Part shown: one piece after another, positions 11,617 through 34,089 of the stretch
Layout of the letters: every line of letters starts with the position of its first letter
How positions within the stretch are numbered: the first letter of the stretch is position 1
Position numbers and translations under genes: made by a program
NCBI RefSeq assembly: GCF_000238775.2
Contig: NZ_AFEJ02000001.1
Span: 3,348,001 to 3,412,000, forward strand
Source: Acaryochloris sp. CCMEE 5410
Lineage (GTDB): Bacteria > Cyanobacteriota > Cyanobacteriia > Thermosynechococcales > Thermosynechococcaceae
DNA: 64,000 nt
Direction: 5' to 3'
Notes under the pieces: generated by a model
Database searches by the model: none
What the model saw: only the letters and a program-made list of their open reading frames with translations
Told to the model about the DNA's origin: nothing

Positions 11617-13587
11617 ATGTCACAACCCACGATTGAATCCATCCTCCAAGAACAACGCCTGTTTCCACCGCCTGCAGACCTGGCGGCCCAGGCCGAGATC
11701 AAAAGTGCCGAGGAATACGAGCAGCTGTATGCCAAAGCAGAAGCCGATCCTCAAGCCTTTTGGGCTGAACTGGCAGAAAAGGAACTGGACTGGTTTGAGA
11801 AATGGGATACGGTGCTGGACTGGCAGCCCCCCTTTGCCAAGTGGTTTGTCGGCGGCAAGCTCAACATCACCTATAACTGTCTAGATCGTCACCTGAAAAC
11901 CTGGCGACGCAACAAAGCCGCTCTGATTTGGGAAGGGGAACCAGGCGACTCGCGCACCCTCACCTATGCCCAACTCCATCGAGAAGTCTGTCAAACCGCC
12001 AACGTGCTCAAGCAATTGGGCGTGGGCAAAGGCGACCGGGTGGGCATTTATATGCCGATGGTACCGGAAGCTGCGATCGCAATGTTAGCCTGCGCCCGCA
12101 TTGGTGCCCCCCATACCGTTGTCTTTGGCGGGTTTAGTGCCGAAGCCCTCAAGGATCGCCTCAACGATGCCGAAGCCAAATTAGTGATTACCGCTGATGG
12201 CGGCTTCCGCAAAGATAAAGCCGTTCCTCTCAAAACCGCCGTTGACAAAGCCTTAGCCGATAATGGTGTCCCTAGCGTTAACAACGTTTTAGTGGTGCAG
12301 CGCACTAAAGCCGATGTCACCATGGCCTCCAATCGCGACCATTGGTGGCATGAGTTAGTCCCAGCCGCTTCCGCTGACTGTCCGCCTGAACCCATGGACA
12401 GCGAAGATATGCTGTTTATTCTCTATACCAGCGGCACCACCGGACGGCCCAAAGGGGTAGTCCATACCACCGGAGGCTACAACCTCTACACCCATATGAC
12501 CTGCAAGTGGGCCTTTGACCTTAAAGATAATGATGTCTACTGGTGTACCGCAGACGTGGGTTGGATTACAGGCCATAGCTATATTGTCTACGGTCCTTTA
12601 TCTAATGGGGCCACCTCCCTAATGTATGAAGGCGCACCCCGCGCTTCCAATCCCGGCTGTTTTTGGGACGTTGTGGAAAAATATGGCGTCAATATCTTCT
12701 ATACGGCTCCCACTGCCATTCGGGCCTTTATTAAACTGGGCGATCAACATCCCCAAGCCCGCGACTTATCTTCGCTGCGGATTTTAGGCACCGTCGGTGA
12801 ACCCATTAACCCAGAAGCCTGGATCTGGTATCAGCAGGTGATTGGCGGCGGCAAATGCCCGATTATCGATACTTGGTGGCAAACGGAAACGGGAGGCTTT
12901 ATGATTACGCCCCTGCCGGGTGCCACATCCACTAAGCCTGGATCTGCCACTCGACCCTTCCCAGGGATTTTGGCGGATGTGGTCGATTTAGACGGCAACC
13001 CCGTCGCAGACAATGAAGGGGGCTATCTGGTCATCCGTCACCCCTGGCCCAGCATGATGCGTACAGTGTATGGCGATGATGATCGGTTCCGCCGGACTTA
13101 CTGGGAGCATATCCCTCCCAAAGATGGTAAATATGTGTACTTCGCTGGGGATGGCGTCCGCCGAGATGAAGATGGTTATTTCTGGATTATGGGCCGCGTC
13201 GATGACGTGATTAATGTATCCGGGCACCGCCTGGGGACGATGGAGATTGAGTCTGCACTGGTGTCCCATCCCGCCGTGGCGGAAGCTGCCGTGGTTGGTC
13301 GTCCTGATGATCTCAAGGGTGAAGATGTGTTTGCCTTTGTCACCTTGGAAAATACCCATCCTCCGAGTGATGAACTGAATGCTGAGCTGAAGCAGCATGT
13401 GGTCAATGAGATTGGGGTGATTGCTCGGCCGGGCGAGATTCGCTTTGCCGATGCGTTACCTAAAACCCGCTCTGGCAAGATTATTCGGCGATTCTTGCGC
13501 AACCTAGCCAGTGGCGAAGAGATCGCTGGGGATGCGTCCACCATGGAAGACCAAAGTGTTCTAGATAAACTGCGTCAAGGTTCTTAA
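11617..13587 (+). CDS. acs: Acetyl-CoA synthetase
   Basis: The 656-residue protein matches the normal length of AMP-forming acetyl-CoA synthetase, which activates acetate with ATP and CoA to acetyl-CoA via acetyl-AMP. The AMP-binding P-loop [11 protein letters not shown] is at residues 270-280, the [10 protein letters not shown] motif lies near residue 420, and the catalytic lysine is K621 in [11 protein letters not shown], the site regulated by acetylation in other bacteria. The N-terminal ACAS domain ([20 protein letters not shown]) is complete. It is monocistronic, with a divergent promoter region upstream and a strong hairpin after the stop. Confidence 0.96.
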
Positions 13588-13605
13588 ACACTCACGATAG
13601 CTGAT

Positions 13606-13641
13606 GAGGTTGAGTTTATAAGGTCCAATAGACTCAACCTC
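13606..13641 (+). terminator. Hairpin terminator after acs
   Basis: A perfect 10-bp inverted repeat, gaggttgagt at 13606-13615 and actcaacctc at 13632-13641, lies 18 bases after the acs stop. The following sequence is only moderately T-rich, so it may stop transcription weakly or protect the 3' end. Confidence 0.5.
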
Positions 13642-13849
13642 AAACTTCTCTTGCTTACAGGCCAAAATATTGAACATTTCAAATACCTTGCCCTATTTGC
13701 AGGGCCTCTAGATTCTCAGTGCAGATCGGCTGCAATTGTCCCTCACTGAATGGCGAAGCACAGAGTCAACCCATCACCCAAACCTCGTAGGAAAACCTGA
13801 GAGTAGGTATTACTGAGCACACATTAAGAACCAAACTTTATCACCGAAA

Positions 13850-16800
13850 TCAACGATATCGTTCCTTCTCTACCCACTGTTCAGCTTCTTTCAAAGTCAC
13901 AAAACTATTGGGGAAGCGATTATGAAAAATCGTTGCCAGCCCATCCCAATCTCGATTGGCATCAATATCGATACCTGGGGGCATAAATGTACCGCAAATG
14001 AGTGGTGGATCCACACCTTCCAGTTGATCACTTGTGAGATTGTGAGCATCACTCAAAACCGTTCGTATTAAAAGAGTTTTGCGGAGATCGGCGTTGATGA
14101 GGTCGGCTCCGCGGAGATCGGTGCTTCGGAGATCGGCGCTGCGGAGATCGGTACTGCTAAGGTTAGCTCCGCGGAGATCGGCGCTACGCAGGTAGGCGCT
14201 GCGGAGGCAGGATCTACTGAGGTTGGCGCTGCTGAGGTCGGCGCTGCTGAGGTTGGTGTCGATGAGGTTGGCGCTGCTGAGATCGACGTTGATGAGGTAG
14301 GCGCTGATAAGGTTGGCGCTACTGAGATCGGCGCTGCGGAGATCGGCGTTGATGAGGTCGGCTTTGCGGAGGTTGGCGCTGATGAGGTTGGCGCTGCTGA
14401 GGTCGGTGCTGCGGAGGTTGGTGCTGATGAGGTTGGCGCTGATGAGGTTGGCATTGCTGAGGTTGGCATTGCTGAGGTTGGCATTGCTGAGGTTGGCGCT
14501 GATGAGGTTGCATTGATGAGGTTGGCATTGATGAGGTTAGCGCTACGGAGGTCGGTGCTGCTGAGGTTGGCGTTGATGAGGTTGGCGCTGCGAAGATCGG
14601 CACTGCGGAGATCGGCGTTGCTGAGGTTGGCGTTGCTGAGGTTGGCGCTGCGAAGATCGGCACTGCGGAGATCGGCATTGCTGAGGTTGGCACTGCTGAG
14701 GTCAGCGCTGCTGAGGTTGGCTCTACGGAGATTGGCGTTGATGAGGTTGGCGCTGAAGAAATAAGGCCCTAGTGTAGTGGTAAAAGTCCCTGTTTCCAGG
14801 GTATCTGCGTAATGAATAATATCGAGGAGACGTTCGGCTTGCGCACCTTCTGTATCAGGTTCACCACAGGGATAAAAATAGATATCGGGTTGAGTGGTAT
14901 CGCCTCTACAATAAGGATAGTCCTCTGGTTGCGCAGATGCATGTAGCCTAAACAGAAAAATCATCACGTTTAGCCCCGTAAATACATCTACTTGCTTTAA
15001 TCCGGTAGGGATCTCTTGGTCTAGCAACTGTATCAGTTTCTTCTGGGGAAGATTCTCATTGGGGGGAGCATCCAAAAATTCGTTTTGGCACCAGCGATCA
15101 TAGAAATTATTGAGGCGATTAAACAGCCGTACACGGTCAATATCGCTCTCATCCAGTAGCTCCCACAAATAGGCGACAATTTCTTGACTCAGGCCGCCAT
15201 AACCCAATACGTCATAAATTTGTTCATTCAGTGCTCGTTCATCCAACCGGTACCGTTCACGTTTATCTAACTCCGTCCACGTTTCAAAGGCGATTAGTAA
15301 TCGCTCTGCAAATAAATACTCACCAAAGCTCTTGTGGGCAAATTCCACTGAACCCCGTTTATCGATTTCTCCAGGTTTTAGATAAAAGGTGGTCAGTAAA
15401 TTATTTAGCGCTTTGTCCTCGGATTGCCCAGTGGTTTCCTGGGCTTGCTTCAGCAATTCAGCGATGGGATTGCTGCTGTCCTTAAACCGCTGCTTTACCA
15501 TTTCTAGTCGGGCTGTTTCATTCCCCGATTGCACCACACACAACGCTGCTTCTTGCAGTATCTCCCGTAAATCTTCTATGGTGTCTAACCCTGATAGCCG
15601 CAAGTTCTCATCCTGCCGCTGTTTTTCCAATACCCAATTCACCGCTTCTCGATAAATTCGCAGCTTGGCCTGAGTATCCTGATGGCGACCCGTTTGAGTA
15701 TCGGCAAACATCCCTTGAGTGAGATGTCCCTCTCGATTGAGCCTCGCCAGCAAATACAGTAGCAAAGGCTCACGGGCTAGAGTATCTGTAATATCTTGAG
15801 GACAGGCCGCCAAAAACTCCTTGAACTGATTGACCGTATCTTCTCCAAATAGGGCTTGCCATTTGATCAGCCAGCGTTCTCTCAACTGATCTCCCATGGG
15901 TTCTAGCCGCACCCGCTCCAAGTCTTTAATTTGAGTGATCAGCCGATCAATGCCCTGCAGTGCTAACGGTCGTCCAGTGACCAATAGCTGATGATGGCTA
16001 CGCCGCTGAAAATCCGTTACTTGCTGCAAAAACTCCTTTAAACCACCCGTAGCCCGCCCTTCTAACAAGAGTTCATCAAAGCCATCCAAAATAATCAAAA
16101 ATCGAGTGTTTTTATCGGCTAGCCAGTTCGATTCCCCACGCACGAAATTCTCCTGCTCTAAATCGGGGCAGTCTTCTAGAGTTTCTGTTAGATTGTTTGC
16201 CAGTTTCCGTAGGTCTCGTAACCGAATCCGCAAGGGAATAAAAGCATCTCCAAATTCCGAGCACACCCAATTTGCAATCATGCGACAAAATACAGATTTC
16301 CCTCGGCCTGCCTCGCCTTCCATAAACATCACCCTGCGGGTCTGGTTGGCTGGCTGGTCTAAAATTTGCCTTGTCCATTCATGGCTACAGATGGGACTAA
16401 CATCACGTTTTACCTCTCCTTCTTGGGTTAAGGGCTGCACCTCTAGCCGTACATAGATGTCTTGAAAGCTTACTCTGGGGCTACTTTCATCAAAGACCTG
16501 CTCCTGGGGAGTGGGTTTTATCCGCGTTTCTAAATACTCGTCAATAGCCGTATAACGTTCTAGCTCTTGCTGTCCACCAGTACGGTAAAACTCAGCCAAG
16601 GGTTCCACGCTTTCCCCAGCCGCTGCAATGGCCTCATGGAAATACCGATGACTTCCCCACAAGACTTGATCTGCCAATCGTTGAGCTTGGCTGTTGTCCA
16701 GTCCACACTGTTTCAACTGTTCTATCAAAGCTGTTCCAAACTTCTCAGCGAATACAGACTCTCGAAATTGGGTAGTAGCTGTCTTTGCTTCATTGAGGGT

Positions 16801-17256
16801 CAGTTCAGTTCTATAAAATTTGGAAAGCTGTTTCTCGACAACATCCTTAAGCGATAGCTGCACTAGCTGCGCTTTAATCGTCTCATCCTGTTTTTCCAAC
16901 ACTATTTCTAAACTCTGGAGATAGGCGAGTTGGGCGACAATTGTGACTGAACTCTCGAAAGTTGGCTCCACTTTTGCCAGTTCAATCCCAATTTTCAGCA
17001 AGTTAATGCCAACAGATACAAATGGCAACCCAGAAATAGCCAACTTTGTCACTGGCGTATCCAGGGCTTTAATCAGTGGTTCTGCCTTTTGCAAATAGGG
17101 GGCAAGCTGTTGAATCTGATCGGCATTGTCCTGCCAAGCTTTTGAAGCATCCGGCAACGCCTTCATGGCTTCAATGCCTTGTTGGGCCACATCTCCCCAA
17201 GGAATATCTCGTACATCCGTATTGAGAAAATCCCAAAATCCTCTGAGAGCTTTCAT
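13850..17256 (-). pseudogene. NACHT NTPase with pentapeptide-repeat tail, single-base frameshift
   Basis: A STAND-type NTPase. Residues 1-290 are mainly helical with a hydrophobic stretch at about 71-92. The NACHT ATPase has Walker A GEAGRGKS at 314-321 and Walker B ILDGFDEL around D391-D394. A helical region follows, then pentapeptide repeats (A[ND]LxxA) from about residue 832. After LINANLINA the original frame turns into a nonsense SAPTS pattern and stops at 14068. One missing base near 14511 explains this: restoring it keeps perfect ANLSN-type repeats and reads without a stop through 14056 into a non-repeat tail (SDAHNLTSDQLEGVDPP) ending at 13850, for about 1135 residues in all. Bacterial NACHT proteins include antiphage sensors. 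The lesion could be a real mutation, a phase-variation state or a sequence error; without it the gene looks functional. Confidence 0.8.
14062..14755 (-). repeat. 15-bp periodic repeat array encoding pentapeptides
   Basis: About 45 tandem degenerate 15-base units of the form (g/a)ctgaggttggcg encode A(N/D)LxN/S pentapeptides on the minus strand. This folds as a right-handed quadrilateral beta-helix in known pentapeptide proteins. The array is internally homogeneous, with near-identical neighbouring units, so it could expand, contract or lose bases by slippage. The frameshift near 14511 lies inside a local block of almost identical units. Confidence 0.85.
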
Positions 17257-17607
17257 TACTGACCTTTATGATCCTGAGTTCTTCAAGATAATAGCTGTAC
17301 TTCGCTGAAAAGTCCTAAATCTATTAGGTAGGGCATAGCCAACTTGACGACTGAGTACAAAAACTAAGCGCTCTTTATCAACATCCATCAATATCCCCTA
17401 GTTGACTGACCAAACTTCAATCGGTCCTATAGCCAATCGGTTTGTACCTTGAACTCAATCTGCTGTCTTCTTTGCTGCGCTTGTCCATCGCATCTCAACC
17501 GGTATCTTTTACCCCTAAAGCACAGATAAGCCTGCTCTCCATACGCCATTCATCACTAGCCCTATCAGATCTGCTAGACTTGACTTGTACGCAAATCTTG
17601 TACAACT
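17257..17607. promoter_or_regulatory. Divergent region between NACHT gene and Phd/YoeB operon
   Basis: This 351-bp gap holds the promoters of the leftward NACHT gene and the rightward toxin-antitoxin operon. Immediately before the antitoxin ATG a direct repeat, cttgtac at 17584-17590 and 17597-17603 with a 13-bp period, occurs. The second copy is part of the palindrome ttgtacaa. Position and repetition fit an autoregulatory operator for the Phd-type antitoxin; that role is inferred. Confidence 0.4.
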
Positions 17608-17910
17608 ATGCTGAGTAAATCTCATTCGGCCTCTCACGTGCGCCAAAATTTCTTCAAAGTTCTGGATGAGGTCACCCAAGATCGCAACGTTATCTTGATC
17701 GAAAGACGAGATGCCCCAGACGTCGCCATCATCTCCGCCGATGAGCTAACCAACATGATGGAAAGCCTCTACCTGCTGAGATCGCCCCAGAATGCCCAAA
17801 GACTGTTTGATGGACTGGCCTGGTCACAAACCCAAGATCAGAATCCACCTGGCGAAGAAGCTGCCGAACAAGCCATCGCCCAGTTGAGAGCAGAGATTGA
17901 GCAAGCGTAA
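17608..17910 (+). CDS. Phd/YefM-family antitoxin
   Basis: A 100-residue protein with the Phd/YefM N-terminal DNA-binding fold: SKSHSASHVRQNFFKVLDEV, then VILIERRDAPDVAIISADEL, then a helix MMESLYLLRSP. The C-terminal acidic and flexible part would wrap the toxin. It neutralises the YoeB-type toxin encoded next and normally represses its own operon. The toxin gene begins inside its last codons (14-nt overlap), so the pair is translationally coupled. It is divergent from the NACHT gene, forming a small defence-like neighbourhood. Confidence 0.88.
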   Translation: MLSKSHSASHVRQNFFKVLDEVTQDRNVILIERRDAPDVAIISADELTNMMESLYLLRSPQNAQRLFDGLAWSQTQDQNPPGEEAAEQAIAQLRAEIEQA

Positions 17911-18202
17911 ATCCAAAATATCGGATCAGCCCCTCACCGTCTTTCGACGATACGCCAATCTATCGCCTCAATTTCGAGAAGATCTCAAAGCTCTCGCTCA
18001 AACCGACCCCAAACTCTACGATCGCACCTGGGTGATCATTGATAATACCCTCGAAGATCCGTTTAAGGGCATTGGCAAGCCTGAACCCTTGAAACATATC
18101 GGGAGTGATATTTGGTCTCGCCGCTTATCCCATGAGCATCGCATCGTCTATGTGGTCAGGGATGAGCGTATTGACTTTATCCAAGCCAAATATCATTACT
18201 GA
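17897..18202 (+). CDS. YoeB/Txe-family mRNA interferase toxin
   Basis: This protein of about 100 residues ends with the typical YoeB/Txe block: PFKGIGKPEPLKHIGSDIW, SRRLSHEHRIVYVV and the C-terminal AKYHY. YoeB-type toxins are ribosome-dependent endoribonucleases of the RelE fold; the conserved Glu, Arg and His and the terminal Tyr-His-Tyr are all present, so it looks active. The TTG start at 17897 overlaps the antitoxin stop. The N-terminus is a little longer than classical YoeB, so a start further in is possible. Confidence 0.88.
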   Translation: MSKRKSKISDQPLTVFRRYANLSPQFREDLKALAQTDPKLYDRTWVIIDNTLEDPFKGIGKPEPLKHIGSDIWSRRLSHEHRIVYVVRDERIDFIQAKYHY

Positions 18203-18269
18203 TGAATAGGGTCATATTGATGTGAGCACGATTTGAACATTCAGCCAATGCTAATGGATGGTGATGGAC

Positions 18270-19124
18270 TCAACCGCAATGCGGCTCTGGCTTATCGGCC
18301 AAAATATATACCGTCGTTAGATCATTCCAGAGGCCCTGCTCCGTTTGCAGGGCTTCCAGTTCTGCATATAGTTCAGCTTTAATTTTCGCTAGCTCTATTG
18401 CGGAAAACCGGGATAGGCCATCACCAACAACCTTTGGAGCAGTAATAGAAGGATTCACCGCAACGCTCTCCCAAATGGCTTTGGCTTGATCTAGCGTTTT
18501 ATAACTGCCATGTTGTTCGGTATGAATCTCAACCGTTTCAAAACCAGCCTTTTCAAACAACTGCCGACATTGCTCAATCGAACCCAACCGATTGCTAGGC
18601 TCTAATTCAAGACCATACTCAGCCAGTACTCTGCGTAACACCACAGCCCCAATATAGGCGGTATCAGCAGGGGTATGGACGGCGATGCGCCCCTTGGGCT
18701 TGAGCAACTGATACCACAAACGCAATGTCGAGGCTTTATCCGTCATCCAAGGAAACGTATGGGCACAGAGGATAGCGTCAAAATGATGACTGGGATAGTC
18801 AAGGGCTTCAGCATCAGCCCGTTGAACCACGACGTTGCTCAGTCCTAACCGCTGAATTTTGCGCTGTGCTTGCTTCAACATACCTGAAGAAATGTCTACG
18901 CCAGTCACATGACCTTGCTCGCCTACAAGTCGGGCAGATGCGATCGCAAGATAGCCTGTTCCCGTACCAATATCTAAAACCGTCTGACCAGCACCAATCC
19001 GCGCATATTCCAGCAGGCGGTCACAAATTTGAGGGTGCCACTGCCCCTGGTCATAGCTTCGACTCCTACAATTATAAAAGTCTGCAACCCCTTGTTTAAA
19101 TTCATCTAATGCAAGTGGTTTCAC
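18270..19124 (-). CDS. Class I SAM-dependent methyltransferase
   Basis: A 284-residue protein with the complete SAM-binding core: motif I VLDIGTGTGYLAIASARLVG (about residues 50-69), then GVDISSGMLKQAQRK, ADAEALDYPSHHFDAILCAH and LLKPKGRIAVHTP. The N-terminal SRSYDQGQWHPQICDRLLEYA is the usual cap of UbiE/Coq5-like and arsenite-methyltransferase-like groups. The substrate cannot be told from sequence. A C-terminal helical domain (about 200-284) may bind it. The gene is monocistronic, and its upstream region is shared with the DUF1232 gene. Confidence 0.8.
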   Translation of the reverse strand: MKPLALDEFKQGVADFYNCRSRSYDQGQWHPQICDRLLEYARIGAGQTVLDIGTGTGYLAIASARLVGEQGHVTGVDISSGMLKQAQRKIQRLGLSNVVVQRADAEALDYPSHHFDAILCAHTFPWMTDKASTLRLWYQLLKPKGRIAVHTPADTAYIGAVVLRRVLAEYGLELEPSNRLGSIEQCRQLFEKAGFETVEIHTEQHGSYKTLDQAKAIWESVAVNPSITAPKVVGDGLSRFSAIELAKIKAELYAELEALQTEQGLWNDLTTVYILADKPEPHCG

Positions 19125-19463
19125 GTTCAGTCATGATCTACAACTGCTTTCTAGCCTAACGGGAAGTCGAATCCTCAGCACCGCTTTTGATGCGAAAAGC
19201 TCTGCGCTGCAACATCTCACTTTGAAACATGAGAAGCCAATCAAATCACAAAGAGGCATACCCGCATCTTTCTAGTTGCTAGTCCATCGTCAGAGAATCA
19301 TTTCGAGGTATCGTCCAATCATCATCACGTGCAATACATCCTACTTGCGGTAAACCGTATACGGTCTATTCGGTGTAGTTTTACCCCATCTCTGCGGGTA
19401 ATCTGCACCAGATTTTTTGAGGCAGGTCTGTGAGAATGAAATCACTGAAGTACAGGACCTTCG
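19125..19463. promoter_or_regulatory. Divergent intergenic region with 12-bp palindrome
   Basis: This 339-bp gap lies between the leftward methyltransferase and the rightward DUF1232 gene. It contains the perfect palindrome accgtatacggt at 19354-19365, about 100 bp before the DUF1232 start, which could be a regulator site. No tRNA-like sequence or convincing small ORF was found. Confidence 0.3.
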
Positions 19464-19748
19464 ATGAAACAACCCTCCTTGTTTAAGCTGTTTCAAGACG
19501 CCTTTCGCCAAGGCCTTCGTCATCCAAAATATCGTTGGGCTCTGATCGCTGGCACCTTGTTTTATCTGGTCAGCCCGCTAGATCTTGCCCCTGATGTATT
19601 GCCTATCGCAGGCTGGATTGATGACGGTGTACTCGTAACCTTCCTGATTTCTGAAGTCTGTCAGCTGATGTTGGAAAACAAGAAAAACAGCACCTCAGAA
19701 GAAACTGTTGCAGCCACGATTGATATTGAAGCCAACCCCGTTGTTTAG
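19464..19748 (+). CDS. YkvA-family (DUF1232) small membrane protein
   Basis: A 94-residue protein. The DUF1232 signature is complete: RHPKYRWALIAGTLFYLVSPLDLAPDVLPIAGWIDD, where the SP-x-D-x-x-P-D core and the following D-D are diagnostic. One or two hydrophobic helices suggest membrane association. Function in the family is not established. The next gene starts 43 bases downstream in the same direction and may be cotranscribed. Confidence 0.85.
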   Translation: MKQPSLFKLFQDAFRQGLRHPKYRWALIAGTLFYLVSPLDLAPDVLPIAGWIDDGVLVTFLISEVCQLMLENKKNSTSEETVAATIDIEANPVV

Positions 19749-19791
19749 TCGCCCCACCCTTCCCAACTTGCAGCACCGGAGATTTTTACAG

Positions 19792-20334
19792 ATGGAAATG
19801 AACAACAAAACCCCCATGAATGCTACATTCTCTCAAATTAAAACTGAAAGCGGAACCCGCAGCCAGCGGATTGCCAAGATTCTCAAAGAGGCCTTTACGC
19901 AAACGTCAGCAGAATTGAAAGAAGGGTACACCATTGTTCGTCCTCTCGCTGCTGAAATGTCGGCCACGGTCGCTGCAGACTTGAAAGAGAAACGCCATCA
20001 AGCCTCTAGTAATTTCCAAGAGGCTTGGGGTAAAGAAACGGACTCAAAATCAACCTGGGAACGTCTGCAAAGCGTCTTCCAAATGATGGCCAAGGCGATT
20101 CAAAAGACCCTCACCCCTCCCCTACAAAAACAGGCCACTCGCGTCGACACCAAATTCACTGACCAGTATGGTGACTCCTACACATCCATGAAGCGCGGAC
20201 TCCAGTCTCTTAAAAACTGGTACGTCAATGCCACGGATGCTGCCGACCCTGCTGATTCATCCACCCAGCCCGTTCCTCATGACACCGTGACGGTGGATGT
20301 GGTCGCCTCCCCTGTAGAGGCTCCAGTTCAGTAA
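19792..20334 (+). CDS. Hypothetical helical protein
   Basis: The ATG at 19792 gives 180 residues (an ATG six bases later is also possible); the longer frame would overlap the DUF1232 gene and lacks a ribosome-binding site. The sequence is largely amphipathic helix with many Lys, Gln and Ala (TRSQRIAKILKEAFTQTSAE, then SATVAADLKEKRHQASSNFQ). A Pro/Thr/Val-rich tail follows (VPHDTVTVDVVASPVEAPV). There is no signal peptide and no recognised domain. It is probably in one transcription unit with the DUF1232 protein. Confidence 0.6.
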   Translation: MEMNNKTPMNATFSQIKTESGTRSQRIAKILKEAFTQTSAELKEGYTIVRPLAAEMSATVAADLKEKRHQASSNFQEAWGKETDSKSTWERLQSVFQMMAKAIQKTLTPPLQKQATRVDTKFTDQYGDSYTSMKRGLQSLKNWYVNATDAADPADSSTQPVPHDTVTVDVVASPVEAPVQ

Positions 20335-20474
20335 AGCTGTGGGCATGGATTCAGCCCCAAGTCGCTCACTACACTTCCCCCTCCAGATCTTGAACGACCT
20401 AACTCTGCCGCTAGGATAGAGTTAAGACTCCCCTCAAGTCTGGAGGGATTTTCTTTGGTTTACCGCTGCAAGTT

Positions 20475-20978
20475 ATGACTTCCCAGACGCAAGCCCATTC
20501 TTTAGAAGAGTTATTGGATATGGCGATTGCGATGGTTTCCAACCGGCCTGTGGCCATCGCAACCCAATCCCACACTGACCAAGTCGATAAAGCAGGCCAG
20601 CCCTACATTGATCATCCCCTGCGCGTGATGGAAGCGGGCAATACTCTACCTGAGAAAATCGTGGGCGTTCTCCATGATGCTGTGGAAGACTCGGACTTAA
20701 CCCTAGAAGACCTGGCTGAGGCTGGATTCCCTGAGGAGATTTTGGCCGCCATTGATGCGATGACCAAGCGGGAGCATGAATCTTATGACACCTATTTAGA
20801 ACGCGTGATGGGGAATGCGATCGCATTGCGAGTCAAAATCGCCGATATGACGGACAACATGGATATTAGCCGCATTTCCCATCCCACGGAGAAAGACTGG
20901 ACTCGACTGGAAAAGTATCAAGCCATCCTGCCGCGCTTACAGCAGCGATTAAAAGAAAGCACTCATCCCAGGGATTAA
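20475..20978 (+). CDS. HD-domain (p)ppGpp hydrolase-like protein
   Basis: A 167-residue single-domain protein with the metal-binding pattern of the RelA/SpoT hydrolase domain. QSHTDQVDKAGQPYIDHPLR supplies the first His residues, VLHDAVEDSDLT carries the HD and ED motifs, and VKIADMTDNMDI holds the last Asp. No synthetase or regulatory domain follows, so it resembles small alarmone hydrolases (MESH1-like) that split ppGpp or related nucleotides. It is annotated in many genomes simply as a GTP pyrophosphokinase, which the missing synthetase domain contradicts. The true substrate is uncertain. Confidence 0.8.
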   Translation: MTSQTQAHSLEELLDMAIAMVSNRPVAIATQSHTDQVDKAGQPYIDHPLRVMEAGNTLPEKIVGVLHDAVEDSDLTLEDLAEAGFPEEILAAIDAMTKREHESYDTYLERVMGNAIALRVKIADMTDNMDISRISHPTEKDWTRLEKYQAILPRLQQRLKESTHPRD

Positions 20979-21031
20979 AACGGCGTAAAGATTGGCAAAG
21001 CCAGTTGCTTCCCCTTCCATCGCGCCCAACA

Positions 21032-21427
21032 ATGGAGTGGAACCTTGCAGAGAGCTGTGTCTTGTTAAAGTTACTCCGTACCTCGATAGCGTTTAGTCGA
21101 AAAGCTGGCTTATGGGTCGGCCTTATAGTGGTGTGGTTGGGGGTGAATCTTGCCCCGGCCTGGGCTGCCTCGTCTGGGGACGGTGCTGTGCTGTTTGAAA
21201 CTTACTGTGCAGGCTGTCACCCTAAAGGCGGCAATATCATTCGGCGGCGCAAAACTTTAAAACTGAAATCTTTACAGCGAGACAGCTACGATACTCTAGC
21301 TCCCGTTATCAATCTAATTACCCAGGGACAAAACAATATGCCGGGGTTTGCAGACCAGCTCAATGATACGCAAATCGAAACGGTAGCCCAGTTCGTTCTA
21401 GAACAAGCGAGCAACAATTGGAAATAA
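21032..21427 (+). CDS. c6-like c-type cytochrome
   Basis: About 131 residues from the ATG at 21032; the TTG at 21005 is a poorer start. A hydrophobic export segment (GLWVGLIVVWLGVNLAPAWA) is cut after AWA and sends the protein to the thylakoid lumen or periplasm. The mature part has the haem-attachment motif CAGCH and the distal methionine in NNMPGF, the pattern of cytochrome c6 and its variants. The basic stretch NIIRRRKTLKLKSL differs from plastocyanin-replacing c6 and suits the variant c6 groups of unclear function. It would carry single electrons between membrane complexes. Confidence 0.82.
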   Translation: MEWNLAESCVLLKLLRTSIAFSRKAGLWVGLIVVWLGVNLAPAWAASSGDGAVLFETYCAGCHPKGGNIIRRRKTLKLKSLQRDSYDTLAPVINLITQGQNNMPGFADQLNDTQIETVAQFVLEQASNNWK

Positions 21428-21451
21428 CCCCCTAGAATCAGGAGCAGACGC

Positions 21452-22030
21452 TTGGACACCATCAAAATAGCCACTCCAGCAGATGCCGAAAATTGTCTGG
21501 CGACCCTTACCTTGGCATTCTGCAATGATCCAGCGATTCGGTGGATGTTTCTACAGCCCTCGCAATATGCGCAAGGCTTACCCTTATTTGCTCAAGCCTT
21601 TGGCGGTGCGGCCTTTCAGCAGGCCACCGCGTTTTATACAGACAGGTTTGAGGCAATTGCCCTGTGGCTACCCCCCAACACTCAGCCCGATGAAGCAGCC
21701 CTGATGGCATTAATTCAGCAAGGCGTTGAGGAAAGCAAACAGCCCGCCCTTGCGTCTATTCTGGAGCAGCTCAGCGGGCACCATCCTCAAGAGCCTCATT
21801 GGCATTTAGCGATGATCGGCACCGATCCGATATATCAGGGACATGGCTATGGTTCTGCATTGCTGGCTCACACTCTCGCGACCTGCGATCAGCAACGAAA
21901 TTCAGTGTATCTAGAAGCCACCAATGCCCGTAATGTCGCTCTTTATCAAAACCATGGCTTTGAAGTTTTGGGTACTGTTCAGGCTGAGAACTCACCCACG
22001 CTTTATCCCATGCTTCGGCACCCACAATAA
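21452..22030 (+). CDS. GNAT-family N-acetyltransferase
   Basis: A 192-residue protein starting at a TTG with AGGAG eight bases upstream. The acetyl-CoA-binding motif A is visible as LAMIGTDPIYQGHGYGSALL (Q-x-x-G-x-G/A type). Motif B follows as VYLEATNARNVALYQNHGFEV. The acceptor substrate is not predictable. It starts 24 bases after the cytochrome stop and ends 39 bases before pdxJ, so these genes may share a transcript. Confidence 0.82.
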   Translation: MDTIKIATPADAENCLATLTLAFCNDPAIRWMFLQPSQYAQGLPLFAQAFGGAAFQQATAFYTDRFEAIALWLPPNTQPDEAALMALIQQGVEESKQPALASILEQLSGHHPQEPHWHLAMIGTDPIYQGHGYGSALLAHTLATCDQQRNSVYLEATNARNVALYQNHGFEVLGTVQAENSPTLYPMLRHPQ

Positions 22031-22069
22031 CCTCTATAATTAATCTTCCCCCTAGCCAGGAGTGTTATT

Positions 22070-22792
22070 ATGCCTACCCTTGGTGTCAATATCGATCATG
22101 TGGCGACGATTCGCCAAGCCCGTCGCACCGTCGAACCAGATCCAGTTGCGGCAGCCGTTTTAGCTGAATTAGCGGGAGCGGATGGTATAACTGTACATCT
22201 ACGAGAAGATCGGCGGCATATTCAGGATCGAGATGTCGAGGTATTACGCAAAACCGTTCGTACCCACTTGAACTTAGAAATGGCGGCGACGGCAGAAATG
22301 GTTGAAATCGCACTTCGTATCCAACCGGATTATGTCACCCTAGTGCCGGAAAAGCGGGAGGAGGTGACCACAGAAGGGGGACTGGATGTCATCGGTCAGC
22401 AAACCCATATGGCGGATGTCGTCCAGACCTTACAATCGGCTCATATTCCCGTCAGCTTGTTTATCGATGCCGATGCGGCCCAAATTGAAGCAGCAGCTCA
22501 GGTGCAGGCCAAGTTTATTGAACTGCACACGGGGACTTACGCCGAAGCCAAAGGTGAGACCCAGCAGGCCCAAGAGTTAGACGTGTTGAAACAGGGTTGC
22601 GATCGCGCTCTTGCTTTAGGACTGCGAGTCAATGCAGGGCATGGTTTGACCTATTGGAATACCTATCCCGTGGCCCGTCTACCGGGGATGGAAGAGCTGA
22701 ATATTGGCCATACAATCATCAGTCGGTCAGTGTTGGTGGGTTTGGACCGAGCCGTGAGGGAAATGAAGGACGTCATTGCAGGTCGAGGCTAG
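22070..22792 (+). CDS. pdxJ: Pyridoxine 5'-phosphate synthase
   Basis: The 240-residue TIM-barrel enzyme starts at an ATG preceded by AGGAGTG. It begins [17 protein letters not shown], the PdxJ signature, and keeps [17 protein letters not shown], the catalytic Glu in [14 protein letters not shown] and the closing INAGHGL-like [12 protein letters not shown]. PdxJ condenses 3-amino-1-hydroxyacetone phosphate with deoxyxylulose 5-phosphate to pyridoxine 5'-phosphate in the DXP-dependent vitamin B6 pathway. Length is normal. Confidence 0.96.
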
Positions 22793-23090
22793 GTTTATAG
22801 GGCCTACCCAGCGTTGGGGCATAAATGACATCGTCAAAAATGAAATACTGAGCTTAACAGGCTTGGTAGAATGACTGGCAAATGACACCTGTCCCTTTCC
22901 CCAAGCACCAGAAATTGGTTCATTGCCATAGAGCGATTCTCGATCACGGTGTTTGTCCTGAACCAAACCGCTAACCCCACTCATGAGACATTAGCACTGT
23001 GCAAAATACATCCATGCAACAGCATTATTATCATCTCAGGCAACCTGGAACTTTTATGGTGATAGCATCTCAGCAGAAACCCCATAGATT

Positions 23091-28785: not shown

Positions 28786-29178
28786 TTATGACCAAGATAT
28801 ACGTAAATCCGTTTCAGGCTTAGGAAAGTTGGTCTTAAAGAAATACAGCAAGCAGAGTGTCGTCACAACTGCGACGCCCACTCGCAAGCCAAACCAAGGT
28901 TGTACTAGATCTCGATACTCGCTCGCTGTAATTTGTACATTCTTGGCGACAAAATCTTTGGCAACGAAATCAACCATCCATATGATTAAAACACAGAAGT
29001 TATTGAGGGAATGGCATACAACTGGGACTAGAATATTTTGAAATTTGTAATATATGAATGAATAAATCATCCCCGCGATAAACAATGTCACTAAGTCATA
29101 ACGCATGTGATAAACGCTAAATAGCAGAGAAGAAGTCCATAAACCAGATATCATTCCCCATTTGCTTGACCATTTACA
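28786..29178 (-). pseudogene. CPBP intramembrane protease, 3' fragment (IS-interrupted)
   Basis: This is the downstream half of a CPBP/CAAX-protease-like gene whose upstream half lies at 30355-31176. The fragment encodes the second conserved box as LFSVYHMRYDL and the third as ILVPVVCHSLNN, plus hydrophobic helices and a tail ending DLRISWS. The ISAs1-family element at 29189-30354 split the gene. Removing it and one 10-bp target duplication joins the codon ending at 30355 directly to the one starting at 29178, giving an intact 404-residue frame. The fragment has no start of its own that would make a functional protease. Confidence 0.85.
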
Positions 29179-29188
29179 CAAGACAAAT

Positions 29189-30354
29189 CAGGGTTGTTTT
29201 ACGTTCCTCCTAGAAAAAATAGGATGGTTCTACTGACCAACAGTAGAGAGACCGATGAGCCATCTAATCGATACTTTGAAGCAAGTCCCGGATTTCCGCA
29301 GTGCCCATGGCCGTATTCATCCGTTATGGCTGCTGTTGCTATTGATGGTGATGGGCATGCTTGCTGGATATCAAGGGTACCGTCCGTTAGAAACCTTTGT
29401 GAGCGATTATCGCCAGCCTTTAAGTGAGCTATTGGGGCTTGAGAGCCTCGAAGTTCCGTCTCACTGTACCTTTCGTCGAGTGATGAAGGGGCTTGACTTC
29501 CAAGCGTTGAGCCACCAATTTGAAGCATGGATGCTCTCGAAAGCCCAGACTCACTCTCCCGATAATTATGCAGCCTCCATTGATGGCAAACGGATTCGTC
29601 AGGGGCTTACAGATGCCAAGGGGAAGCAGCGTTTTGTGGGCTTGGTGAGTTTATTTGCGGTGGAAGCAGGCATCACCCTCAAGCTCGAAGCCCTCACTCA
29701 GGAGGATAATAGCGAAATCAAAGTCGTGCAGGCACTGTTGGAAACCCTTCAACTCGATGGCTTGCTGATTACCATGGATGCCTTACACGCCCAAAAAAAC
29801 ACTTGAGAAGATTGTGGCCTCGGGTAACGACTATCTTGTGGCGGTCAAATCCAATCAGGGAAGACTTTACGACCACCTCCAGACTTACTTTGAGTGTCTT
29901 AAACCCATGGCTGAGCACATCCACTCCGCCCAAAGTAGAGGACGAGATGAACATCGGTGTATACAGGTTTATGAGCCTGTCGGCATAGCCTTACAGGAAT
30001 GGGAGGCAATTCGCTCTGTGCTTTGTGTCCAACGATGGGGCACTCGCAAAGGAAAGGAGTATCACAATACGGCCTATTACATCAGTTCAGCTGCCACCTC
30101 ACCCCAGCATTGGCAATCTCTGGTCCGAGAACATTGGGGCATTGAAAATCGGTTGCATTGGCCGAAGGATGTTGTTTTTGGCGAAGATGATTATCGACTC
30201 GAAGATGAACAAGCACTGCTCAATTGGTCAGTGCTTAGAACTATTGGGATTAATATCCTGCGGCTAAACGACTATCAATCCCTCAAAACCGCGATGACTA
30301 AGCTGGCTAATCGGGTCGATATTATTTTTTCGCTGCTAACTTAAAACAGCCCTG
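29189..30354 (+). mobile_element. ISAs1-family insertion sequence, copy 1
   Basis: A 1166-bp element bounded by imperfect inverted repeats: cagggttgttttacg at the left end and its counterpart ending aaaacagccctg at the right. It is flanked by a perfect 10-bp target duplication, caagacaaat at 29179-29188 and 30355-30364. The size, 10-bp duplication and transposase type fit the ISAs1 family. It interrupts a CPBP protease gene on the opposite strand. A second copy of identical length lies at 32924-34089. Confidence 0.95.
29255..30344 (+). pseudogene. ISAs1-family transposase (frameshifted, copy 1)
   Basis: Starts MSHLIDTLKQVPDFRSAHGR and carries the DDE-type core (ASIDGKRIRQGL, LLITMDALHAQK, then EHWGIENRLHWPKDVVFGED), which is the ISAs1/H-repeat transposase. 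The frame breaks at 29806 because the run after DALHAQ has seven A where the second copy has six; the remainder continues in another frame to the stop at 30344. An intact protein would be about 363 residues. An A7 run can allow transcriptional slippage, so limited expression of the full protein is possible. Confidence 0.88.
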
Positions 30355-31176
30355 CAAGACAAATGCTCGAAAAAATAATTCTTCAACTATAGGTGCAAGA
30401 ATAACAGCTAAGACAAAGAATAACGGCATTTCCCAAAAACCATTAAATCCACTACTGTCAACATAATTTTCTACATAGTTGGGAAAGATAAATGAAAGAT
30501 AGTATAGCGTTATTGAATTAAAGCTCCAGGCAAAAGCCAACTTAACACCTAGTACCCATAATAAATATTTCCAAATACGCTTCCAATTTGTTTTTTTGCT
30601 GTTCTGAATCAACCTCATAGGATTTAATCCAGATCTAGTAAATCGCCTAAGAAGCATCACAGTCCAACTAGTCAACCAGATAATATTGATGGCTTCTGAA
30701 ACCACTAAATTATCCATAGTTTCCTTAGGGTTTAAGCCCATAGCCAGACAGAGCCACCAAAAACTTACATACATTAGACCTGAAAGTGCTAACCATTGGA
30801 TCAATAGCTGTTCTGGTATATCTATTGTCTTAAGTGCTTGAGAGATGCTACTTTTATCTTCAATCTCATAGTTCACAGACGCTTGAGATTTACTGGGCAT
30901 CAATAGAAGAATCGAGACACCAAAAATGCTGGCTATCACTAACATTCTCCAATGAAGAGAATAGCCTTTATCTCTTATATAGCTACCACAGCCAATAAAT
31001 AATATTAGATAACCAATCAATACTAATATTGCAAAAGTCCAATTTAGTGCAGAGGATATCGTATTAGCAGCCTGGCTATCATTGGAAGTCATTGCTCCTA
31101 ATATTGCTAGGGGAGGGATTTGTATAATCAACCCTAGAATAATCAGTAGAATAGATTTTTCTTTTTTTGTTCTCAT
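30355..31176 (-). pseudogene. CPBP intramembrane protease, 5' fragment (IS-interrupted)
   Basis: Begins MRTKKEKSILLIILGLIIQI and encodes several transmembrane helices (about residues 8-28, 45-65, 78-95, 128-150, 165-185, 208-230, 250-268). It reaches the diagnostic first catalytic box EELFFRAFVL, in which EE-x3-R belongs to CPBP/Abi family glutamic intramembrane proteases, then runs into the ISAs1 element. In the interrupted state the reading frame ends in IS sequence at 30322. The gene probably became inactive recently, because both halves are otherwise stop-free. CPBP proteins process prenylated proteins in eukaryotes and act in bacteriocin self-immunity or stress signalling in bacteria. 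Confidence 0.85.
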
Positions 31177-32923: not shown

Positions 32924-34089
32924 CAGGGTTGTTTTACGTTCCTCCTAGAAAAAATAGGATGGTTCTACTGACCAACAGTAGAGAGACCGATGAGCCATCT
33001 AATTGATACTTTGAAGCAAGTCCCGGATTTCCGCAGTGCCCATGGCCGTACTCATCCGTTATGGCTTCTGTTGCTGTTGATGGTGATGGGTATGCTTGCT
33101 GGATACCAGGGATATCGCCCCTTAGAAACCTTTACGAGCGATTATCGCCAGCCTTTAAGTGAGCTATTGGGACTTGAGAGCCTTGAAGTTCCGTCTCACT
33201 GTACCTTTCGTCGAGTGATGATGGGGCTTGACTTCCAAGCGTTGAGCCACCAATTTGAAGCATGGATGCTCTCGAAAGCCCAGACTCACTCTCCCGATAA
33301 TTATGCAGCCTCCATTGATGGCAAACGGATTCGTCAGGGGCTGACAGATGCCAAGGGGAAGCAGCGTTTTGTGGGCTTGGTGAGTTTATTTGCGGTGGAA
33401 GCAGGCATCACCCTCAAGCTCGAAGCCCTCACTCAGGAGGATAATAGCGAAATCAAAGTCGTGCAGGCACTGTTGGAAACCCTTCAACTCGATGGCTTGC
33501 TGATTACCATGGATGCCTTACACGCCCAAAAAACACTTGAGAAGATTGTGGCCTCGGGTAACGACTATCTTGTGGCGGTCAAATCCAATCAGGGAAGACT
33601 TTACGACCACCTCCAGACTTACTTTGAGTGTCTTAAACCCATGGCTGAGCACATCCACTCCGCCCAAAGTAGAGGACGAGATGAACATCGGTGTATACAG
33701 GTTTATGAGCCTGTCGGCATAGCCTTACAGGAATGGGAGGCAATTCGCTCTGTGCTTTGTGTCCAACGATGGGGCACAAAGCAAAGGAAAGGAGTATCAC
33801 AATACGGCCTATTACATCAGTTCAGCTGCCACCTCACCCCAGCATTGGCAATCTCTGGTCCGAGAACATTGGGGCATTGAAAATCGGTTGCATTGGCCGA
33901 AGGATGTTGTTTTTGGCGAAGATGATTATCGACTCGAAGATGAACAAGCACTGCTCAATTGGTCAGTGCTTAGAACTATTGGGATTAATATCCTGCGGCT
34001 AAACGACTATCAATCCCTCAAAACCGCGATGACTAAGCTTGCTAATCGGGTCGATATTATTTTTTCGCTGCTAACTTAAAACAGCCCTG
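32924..34089 (+). mobile_element. ISAs1-family insertion sequence, copy 2
   Basis: A second 1166-bp copy of the element at 29189-30354, in the same orientation, with the same inverted repeats. It has its own perfect 10-bp target duplication, tctaacctgg at 32914-32923 and 34090-34099. The two copies differ at only a few bases. The insertion lies between genes. Confidence 0.95.
32990..34079 (+). pseudogene. ISAs1-family transposase (frameshifted, copy 2)
   Basis: Same transposase as copy 1, but reading frame is intact through DALHAQKTLEK (six A). It then breaks near 33778, where the sequence is ggggcacaaagcaaagg instead of ggggcactcgcaaagg in copy 1, a net one-base gain. The frame then ends early at 33880; the rest continues in another frame to 34079. 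Neither copy therefore encodes a full transposase, though each is correct where the other is broken. Confidence 0.88.

Follow-up and report, generated by a model that had tools for sequence, protein, structure and literature searches.

A NACHT gene with an interrupted pentapeptide array

The window, a stretch of 64,000 nucleotides, lies on contig C1 of the 8.09-Mb, 23-contig genome of Acaryochloris sp. CCMEE 5410 and contains a 5.76-kb accessory block (13587..19348) with a NACHT-PRR gene, a YefM/YoeB pair and a methyltransferase. The block is absent from the same site in the relative G003, where the acs gene (positions 1-1970 of locus L098) is followed by 12 bp and then by the counterpart of window 19349-22804. 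G003 is the only relative with this empty site: G004 and G005 have other genes after acs, and the stretch available from G002 ends soon past acs. An Rfam search of window 13000-20000 returned no match.

The NACHT-PRR gene is read on the reverse strand, and its frame-0 ORF (14068..17256) encodes 1062 aa from an ATG at 17256. The product starts with the NACHT N-terminal helical domain 3, NNH3 (residues 48-258, 16483..17115; Pfam PF22735, 8.3e-52, 176.7 bits against a cut-off of 27), followed by a NACHT NTPase domain (residues 308-466, 15859..16335; Pfam PF05729, 8.1e-10, 39.2 bits against a cut-off of 26.7). Within the NACHT domain are GEAGRGKS and a second stretch of ten residues, which we take to be the P-loop and the acidic Walker B motif, respectively. 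G319, K320, D391, G392 and D394, in the numbering of the intact homologue L023, are invariant among 32 aligned sequences; alignment A1 leaves out L003, L030, L045 and L049 and includes the window only as 14515-17256. A helical region (14791..15858) links the NACHT domain to a pentapeptide array. The fusion of a NACHT ATPase to a pentapeptide beta-helix proposed in the first-pass annotation is thus supported by matches above the Pfam cut-offs.

Cut into 15-mers, the array shows 16 units that share the frame of the NACHT domain (14515..14754), a single unit of 14 bp (14501..14514) and 28 further units that share the frame of the tail (14081..14500); apart from the short one, all 44 parsed units measure 15 bp. 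The neighbour immediately upstream of the short unit (14529-14515) has the same letters and is 15 bp long. This parse bears out the earlier proposal that one base is missing at about 14511 in a block of near-identical 15-bp units, and the coordinates and the length of about 1135 residues estimated for the repaired protein also proved correct. With one unit a base short, the pentapeptide frame holds for the first 16 units only, and the NACHT-frame translation past the short unit gives an off-frame, S/A/P/T-rich reading of 146 aa (14071..14508). The tail frame is open from 14536 to a stop at 13850-13852. Pentapeptide HMM matches are found in both frames: in frame 0 the best stretch (residues 866-904, 1.6e-23) lies upstream of the short unit, and in the tail frame the match (1.1e-47) lies downstream of it. 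Beyond the array the tail frame encodes a conserved C-terminal cap (LLIRTV...EKERYR; 74 aa plus stop, 13850..14074), which the break severs from the NACHT frame. In the window gene the C-terminal repeat sensor and the NTPase are therefore not in one reading frame, whereas the arrays of 31 complete homologues are in frame.

In-frame relatives and the C-terminal cap

Our search for relatives at E<=1e-60 found them in 28 of the 386 genomes of a phylum sample that includes the genome studied here, and the NNH3 domain (PF22735) occurs in 47 of the same 386. The intact homologue L023, from a Leptolyngbyaceae MAG, is 67% identical and consists of a single ORF of 987 aa in which the array runs directly into a homologous cap; the window cap matches its C-terminus at 28 of 63 positions (2e-20). 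The closest relative found is carried by plasmid pMB02 of Acaryochloris 'Moss Beach' (NZ_CP071719.1) and is 89.4% identical over 820 codons. Here too the array is in frame with the cap, which is identical to that of the window at 58 of 74 positions. The tail ending at 13850, predicted earlier from the repaired frame, is thus real and conserved. None of the homologue C-termini examined, the window's own excepted, ends in the S/A/P/T-rich frame, and homology for 13850-14056 is present in both L023 and Moss Beach.

The Moss Beach gene resembles that of the window in its body (89%), its cap and its homogenised array. It differs in that the array is in frame and has 28 full periods between anchors against 46 in the window (426 nt, or 28x15+6, against 695 nt, or 46x15+5), and in that the gene is split by two insertion sequences. 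One of these, an IS4-family element, lies near codon 52; the other, near codon 332, is a 1.15-kb insertion containing a 290-aa ORF with HTH and DDE_3 transposase domains. It is these insertions, and not an array break, that make the Moss Beach copy a dead gene. Taken in the same phase, the units of the two arrays have a between-array identity of 0.70 and three letter strings in common, one of which is in the cap. For the two genes as a whole the dN/dS ratio is 0.14, with values of 0.42 for codons 1 to 52 and 0.33 for the 74 codons of the cap; the changes are too few for dating the break. In comparisons with L021-L023, dS is at or close to saturation, and the ratio says nothing about timing. 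Both of the plasmid records that match the accessory block at the DNA level come from Acaryochloris 'Moss Beach', and genes for NB-ARC, kinase and CHAT-domain proteins lie near the Moss Beach copy.

Predicted fold and possible mechanism

The structural model was made for the intact homologue L023 in place of the window protein (AlphaFold2, with 31 relatives). Its pLDDT is 76.9; residues 801-920, most of which belong to the array, reach 81-96, the cap has 36-72, and residues 1-77 stay below 50. The model aligns with NOD2 (5irn; Z 18.9, 381 aligned, rmsd 8.8), NLRC4 (4kxf_B; Z 18.1, 371 aligned, rmsd 7.2) and NLRP3 (7vtp_A; Z 17.4, 344 aligned, rmsd 6.8) over approximately residues 230-790. Best PDB matches to the array were designed or cyanobacterial PRR solenoids, while NLRP3, NOD2 and NLRC4 were matched over the ATPase module. 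These alignments suggest that the helical region 14791..15858 may correspond to NLR sub-domains. Judged from its NACHT domain match and the NLR-like ATPase fold predicted for L023, the window protein can be classed as a NACHT-type STAND, NLR-like receptor.

When NNH3 was folded alone, the pLDDT was 80.5. A Foldseek comparison of this domain with the PDB gave no confident match (best E 1.3), and the best VIA-align score (Z 7.9, phenylalanine ammonia-lyase, 112 aligned, rmsd 3.4) is under the level that the tool considers meaningful for helical models. The idea of NNH3 as a pore-former found no support in these comparisons; neither HeLo nor MLKL was among the matches listed, which is no proof against such a relationship. 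PADLOC had no match for the receptor pieces of the window or for the homologues L023, L029 and L039. None of the NCBIfam matches (HetL, Alr5209, Qnr, PipB, DotG and others) reached its cut-off, and they seem to reflect the general resemblance among pentapeptide proteins; DS8_antiphage matched residues 258-477 only, with 31.5 bits against 790. A putative antiphage function of the NACHT-PRR receptor is plausible.

By analogy with other NACHT receptors, the NNH3 helical domain would be the effector or adaptor, the NACHT ATPase the switch, and the beta-helix, with its roughly 45 pentapeptide units and conserved cap, the sensor. Binding of a ligand to the beta-helix might then release the NACHT module for ATP binding and oligomerisation, upon which the NNH3 end would trigger cell shutdown or death. 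Ligand, oligomerisation and killing are all modelled on those receptors, and the effector step is a guess because NNH3 is without a confident PDB match. In the window copy the low-complexity tail of 146 aa would take the place of the remaining array and cap after 16 units, and a 16-unit receptor could still have some activity.

Cause of the frame break

We consider it probable that the window gene is an accessory NLR-like receptor inactivated by the loss of one base in its array, and that it belongs to a family whose arrays homogenise and gain or lose whole 15-bp units. The homologue set comprises 35 loci; three of the 33 places given by the relative search of the phylum sample have no locus and were left out. 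Array-internal frame breaks were found in none of the 32 other complete arrays, that is, 31 of these 35 loci and the Moss Beach copy. The count excludes L003 because its break precedes the array, L021 and L022 because their contigs end inside it, and L043 because it lacks an array; L008, which stops soon after the array, was counted as complete from its C-terminus although the run finder gave no run. When 36 loci were scanned for repeats that continue off frame past an in-frame array, only the window and L003 were flagged, and in L003 the frameshift is located before the array. Elsewhere in the family, L030 has stops in its N-terminal part, L045 has a single stop, and L002, L008 and L039 end early in the tail. 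A second NACHT gene of the CCMEE 5410 genome is also split by an insertion sequence.

The first-pass annotation had seen in the homogeneous array a natural site for on/off switching. Reversible slippage that turns the receptor on and off would draw on an array that is tandem and fairly homogeneous and on the differences in array length between relatives, but we regard such phase variation as very improbable. Since the unit is 15 bp, unit slippage keeps the frame; it should alter array length in frame, and relatives show just that. What separates the window array from that of Moss Beach is 18 units minus one base, and the change itself is a single base outside any homopolymer run of 4 or more, such runs being absent from the window array except near its 3' end. 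The feature of contingency genes, a homopolymer or an out-of-frame repeat unit at the switch point, is thus not found in this 15-bp array, and against switching also stand the 32 unbroken arrays and the position of the family's other breaks outside the array. The proposed switch is unsupported.

Recoding is an even fainter prospect. A ribosomal frameshift in the array could give the full-length protein, or the S/A/P/T tail could be a functional alternative end, and the two frames do overlap as ORFs from 14536 to 14071, so a shift anywhere in this stretch would rejoin the cap frame. However, we found no in-frame X XXY YYZ slippery heptamer in 14545..14070, the S/A/P/T end recurs in no other C-terminus examined, and just one of 31 homologues has an alternative frame that reaches the end without a stop. 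A frame-keeping unit together with the lack of a homopolymer and of a -1 slippery heptamer makes both switching and recoding unlikely, and with intact arrays elsewhere we rejected slippage switching and programmed frameshifting as explanations of the break.

An assembly or consensus error, in which the cell does have the base and one unit was left wrong because the neighbouring units are so alike, is somewhat unlikely but the main alternative. The short unit adjoins a full unit that is otherwise identical, the contigs of two relatives (L021 and L022) end within the array, and the downstream frame and cap are undamaged. No stop interrupts the frame for 228 codons past the break and the cap is intact, which would also agree with a faulty assembly or with a break of very recent date. 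Arrays of near-identical units are known to be difficult for assembly, and fungal NLR repeats offer a precedent for both outcomes, since the portion of a study available to us describes one single-base deletion that was a misassembly and another disrupted allele that was real (PMC12222747). On the other side, the site is without a homopolymer, and a 1.15-kb insertion sequence compared across 31 of its copies in this assembly (30 of 40 scored matches and the second copy in the window) varies by 220 substitutions and only 31 indel letters at 10 columns, 25 of the 31 letters being in columns common to at least two copies. With so few indels among these copies, the general indel rate of the assembly appears low. 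None of 19 other PRR loci in the same genome shows a frame change, though these are a weak control because they are far less homogeneous. The window copy is most likely a recently inactivated accessory receptor and not the off state of a switch. Counts of broken receptors in draft genomes may be unreliable, because sensors of this type are open to mis-assembly and may stop where a contig does, as those of L021 and L022 do.

Homogenisation and resizing of the arrays

Taken alone, the frame break would be an ordinary inactivation or an assembly artefact, and the arrays matter more. The mean unit identity of the window array is 0.70, against 0.43-0.55 in the 19 other PRR loci of its genome. Among the homologues, the identity of 15-bp DNA units reaches 0.86-0.90 in L021, L022, L029, L039 and L052 and goes down to 0.46 in others; the fungal criterion for highly conserved repeats is more than 85% identity over at least 100 aa, a measure obtained by another method than our DNA units. 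Homogenisation extends to silent sites. In the window, third-base identity at Ala/Leu codons is 0.80 in the array and 0.28 in the gene body, and in 28 of 33 NACHT-PRR genes it is the array that has the higher value (median 0.75 against 0.30). Eighteen of the 33 arrays have a third-base identity of at least 0.7, with gene bodies at no more than 0.36; strong homogenisation is missing from the remaining 15, among them L023. The Moss Beach array is of the homogenised kind (0.95).

We also compared nine NACHT-PRR arrays from seven other genomes with 40 controls from the same seven genomes. Median unit identity was 0.82 (0.56-0.90) in the NACHT-PRR arrays and 0.50 (0.44-0.74) in the controls, and Ala/Leu third-base identity was 0.97 (0.42-1.0) and 0.33 (0.20-0.78), respectively, with overlapping ranges. 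The controls were hand-picked from the top Pfam matches listed, not drawn at random, and 39 of them are true controls: L120 in fact belongs to a NACHT-PRR gene, of which it is the C-terminal part, and, against the pattern, is only moderately homogeneous (0.57).

Array length varies by whole units. Within one genus, four genes with 82-88% identity have 24, 26, 32 and 34 units, whereas L046-L049, which are not homogenised, have 22 units in all four (78-97% identical). Sequence comparison thus indicates that in many of the family's arrays the units become homogenised and are gained or lost whole, 15 bp at a time, a process that would alter the length of the sensor in frame. In all 18 homogenised arrays the non-synonymous difference at the two outward codons is greater than the synonymous difference at the core Ala/Leu codons, and pN exceeds pS at the outward codons in 12 of these 18 and in 2 of the 15 others; both comparisons are exploratory and ignore the relatedness of units. 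The outward codons of the window array have a pS of 0.62 and a pN of 0.36.

The cap is not restricted to NACHT proteins. It also ends a caspase-nSTAND1-PRR protein on Moss Beach plasmid pMB04 (30 of 72 identical, 4e-17) and a PRR protein in G191, and a remnant of it lies on contig C6 of the CCMEE 5410 genome. The arrays of the pMB04 and G191 proteins are homogenised as well, with third-base identities of 0.79 and 0.91, respectively. We tentatively hypothesize, at somewhat less than even confidence, that in NACHT-PRR proteins and in the caspase-nSTAND1-PRR protein with the same cap the beta-helix is a sensor diversifying by concerted evolution of 15-bp units, as silent-site homogenisation, length change by whole units between close relatives and differences mainly at outward-facing residues might indicate, and that it is a bacterial counterpart of the fungal NLRs with highly conserved repeats. 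Under concerted evolution the broken window copy would be a discarded specificity. If bacterial NLR-like receptors do homogenise and resize a pentapeptide beta-helix, bacterial immunity would have a simple route to new specificities comparable to that of fungal allorecognition genes, with a much shorter repeat unit than in fungal NLRs and a sensor module common to different effectors.

Relation to known systems

The fungal NLRs with highly conserved repeats (het-d/het-e), as far as the sources available in part describe them, likewise combine a NACHT domain with homogenised C-terminal repeats of variable number and include broken alleles, but their repeats are WD40, ANK or TPR, whereas here the host is bacterial and the units are beta-helix units of five residues (PMC4986451, PMC1805685, PMC12222747). 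Bacterial bNACHT antiphage receptors such as bNACHT25 also place a central NACHT ATPase between N- and C-terminal modules; in the text at hand these are a nuclease effector and NCH1 or SNaCT domains, in contrast to the NNH3 and pentapeptide repeats of the present family (PMC12169576). Highly repetitive, young WD40 repeat domains have already been described in cyanobacteria (PMC5587647). That repeat type differs from ours, and the words 'NACHT' and 'pentapeptide' are absent from that text. Putative NACHT-associated antigen sensors that diversify have been described in multicellular bacteria, where, according to the sections available, a diversity-generating retroelement acts on a C-type lectin fold, unlike the repeat homogenisation considered here (PMC10907252). 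Our search of the literature on NACHT with pentapeptide repeats, NLR repeat conservation and concerted evolution brought up studies of fungi and general papers on conflict systems; none of the entries listed concerned homogenised pentapeptide arrays in bacterial NLR-like proteins, and subscription journals were mostly outside its coverage.

Pentapeptide repeats are likewise a variable module in the cyanobacterial conflict proteins with TRADD-N and STAND domains, which, from what the available text gives, have other effector and NTPase modules than the NACHT-PRR proteins; homogenisation of the repeats is not mentioned in the same text (PMC7159879, PMC8195603). TRADD-N proteins are a class that one of these partly available sources assigns to conflict systems (PMC8195603). 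A search for TRADD-N in 12 genomes gave two matches, too few for testing the class: L207, which is without an array, and the already known L131, a TRADD-N protein that is one of the two most homogeneous of our controls.

Cap and homogenised arrays outside NACHT genes

The conserved C-terminal tail (the cap) that follows the pentapeptide array of the window NACHT gene was also found in a caspase-nSTAND1-pentapeptide protein encoded on plasmid pMB04 of Acaryochloris 'Moss Beach' (NZ_CP071721.1; L209 2767-5829), and the array of this protein is likewise homogenised. Among the non-NACHT controls, which were pentapeptide repeat loci from seven other genomes compared with the NACHT-associated arrays for unit and third-base identity, the two most homogeneous arrays belong to a protein combining a TRADD-like_N domain with pentapeptide repeats (L131 822-1910) and to a pentapeptide protein whose contig, in genome G173, is 37 kb long (L116 561-1748). 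A Pfam search of the latter identified no conflict-type domain, and its array does not fit a link of homogenised arrays to immune-type proteins.

NACHT and NNH3 genes

Across the whole genome of CCMEE 5410, NACHT domains were found at 33 places, 27 of them above the Pfam cut-off and two of them representing the halves of one split gene, and NNH3 was present at only one place. Many other NNH3 genes (L176-L201) start with a MEVKSL...ICTLVEVLELPL-like motif directly at the NNH3 domain, and these genes seem to be without the N-terminal extension found in the group of the window gene. The methyltransferase adjoining the receptor gene (window 18270-19124) has a match, at residues 28-209, to one part of the PADLOC mad2 model (4.3e-32), which probably reflects only the common methyltransferase fold.

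Copies of one insertion sequence in the genome

The genome contains at least 40 complete or partial copies of one DDE-type insertion sequence; of 74 candidates, 40 were scored, and of these 39 are 97-100% identical to the window copy and one is 92% identical. Two copies lie in the window, at 29200-30380 and at 32935-34089. In a second NACHT gene of the genome (L101, G000:C1:2326500-2331500), a copy of the insertion sequence seen at 29200-30380 interrupts the NACHT domain; this copy (L101 1842-2996) is 99.5% identical. Separately, an Rce1-like (CPBP) protease gene (window 28786-31176) is apparently in two parts with an insertion sequence copy between them (about 29200-30355).
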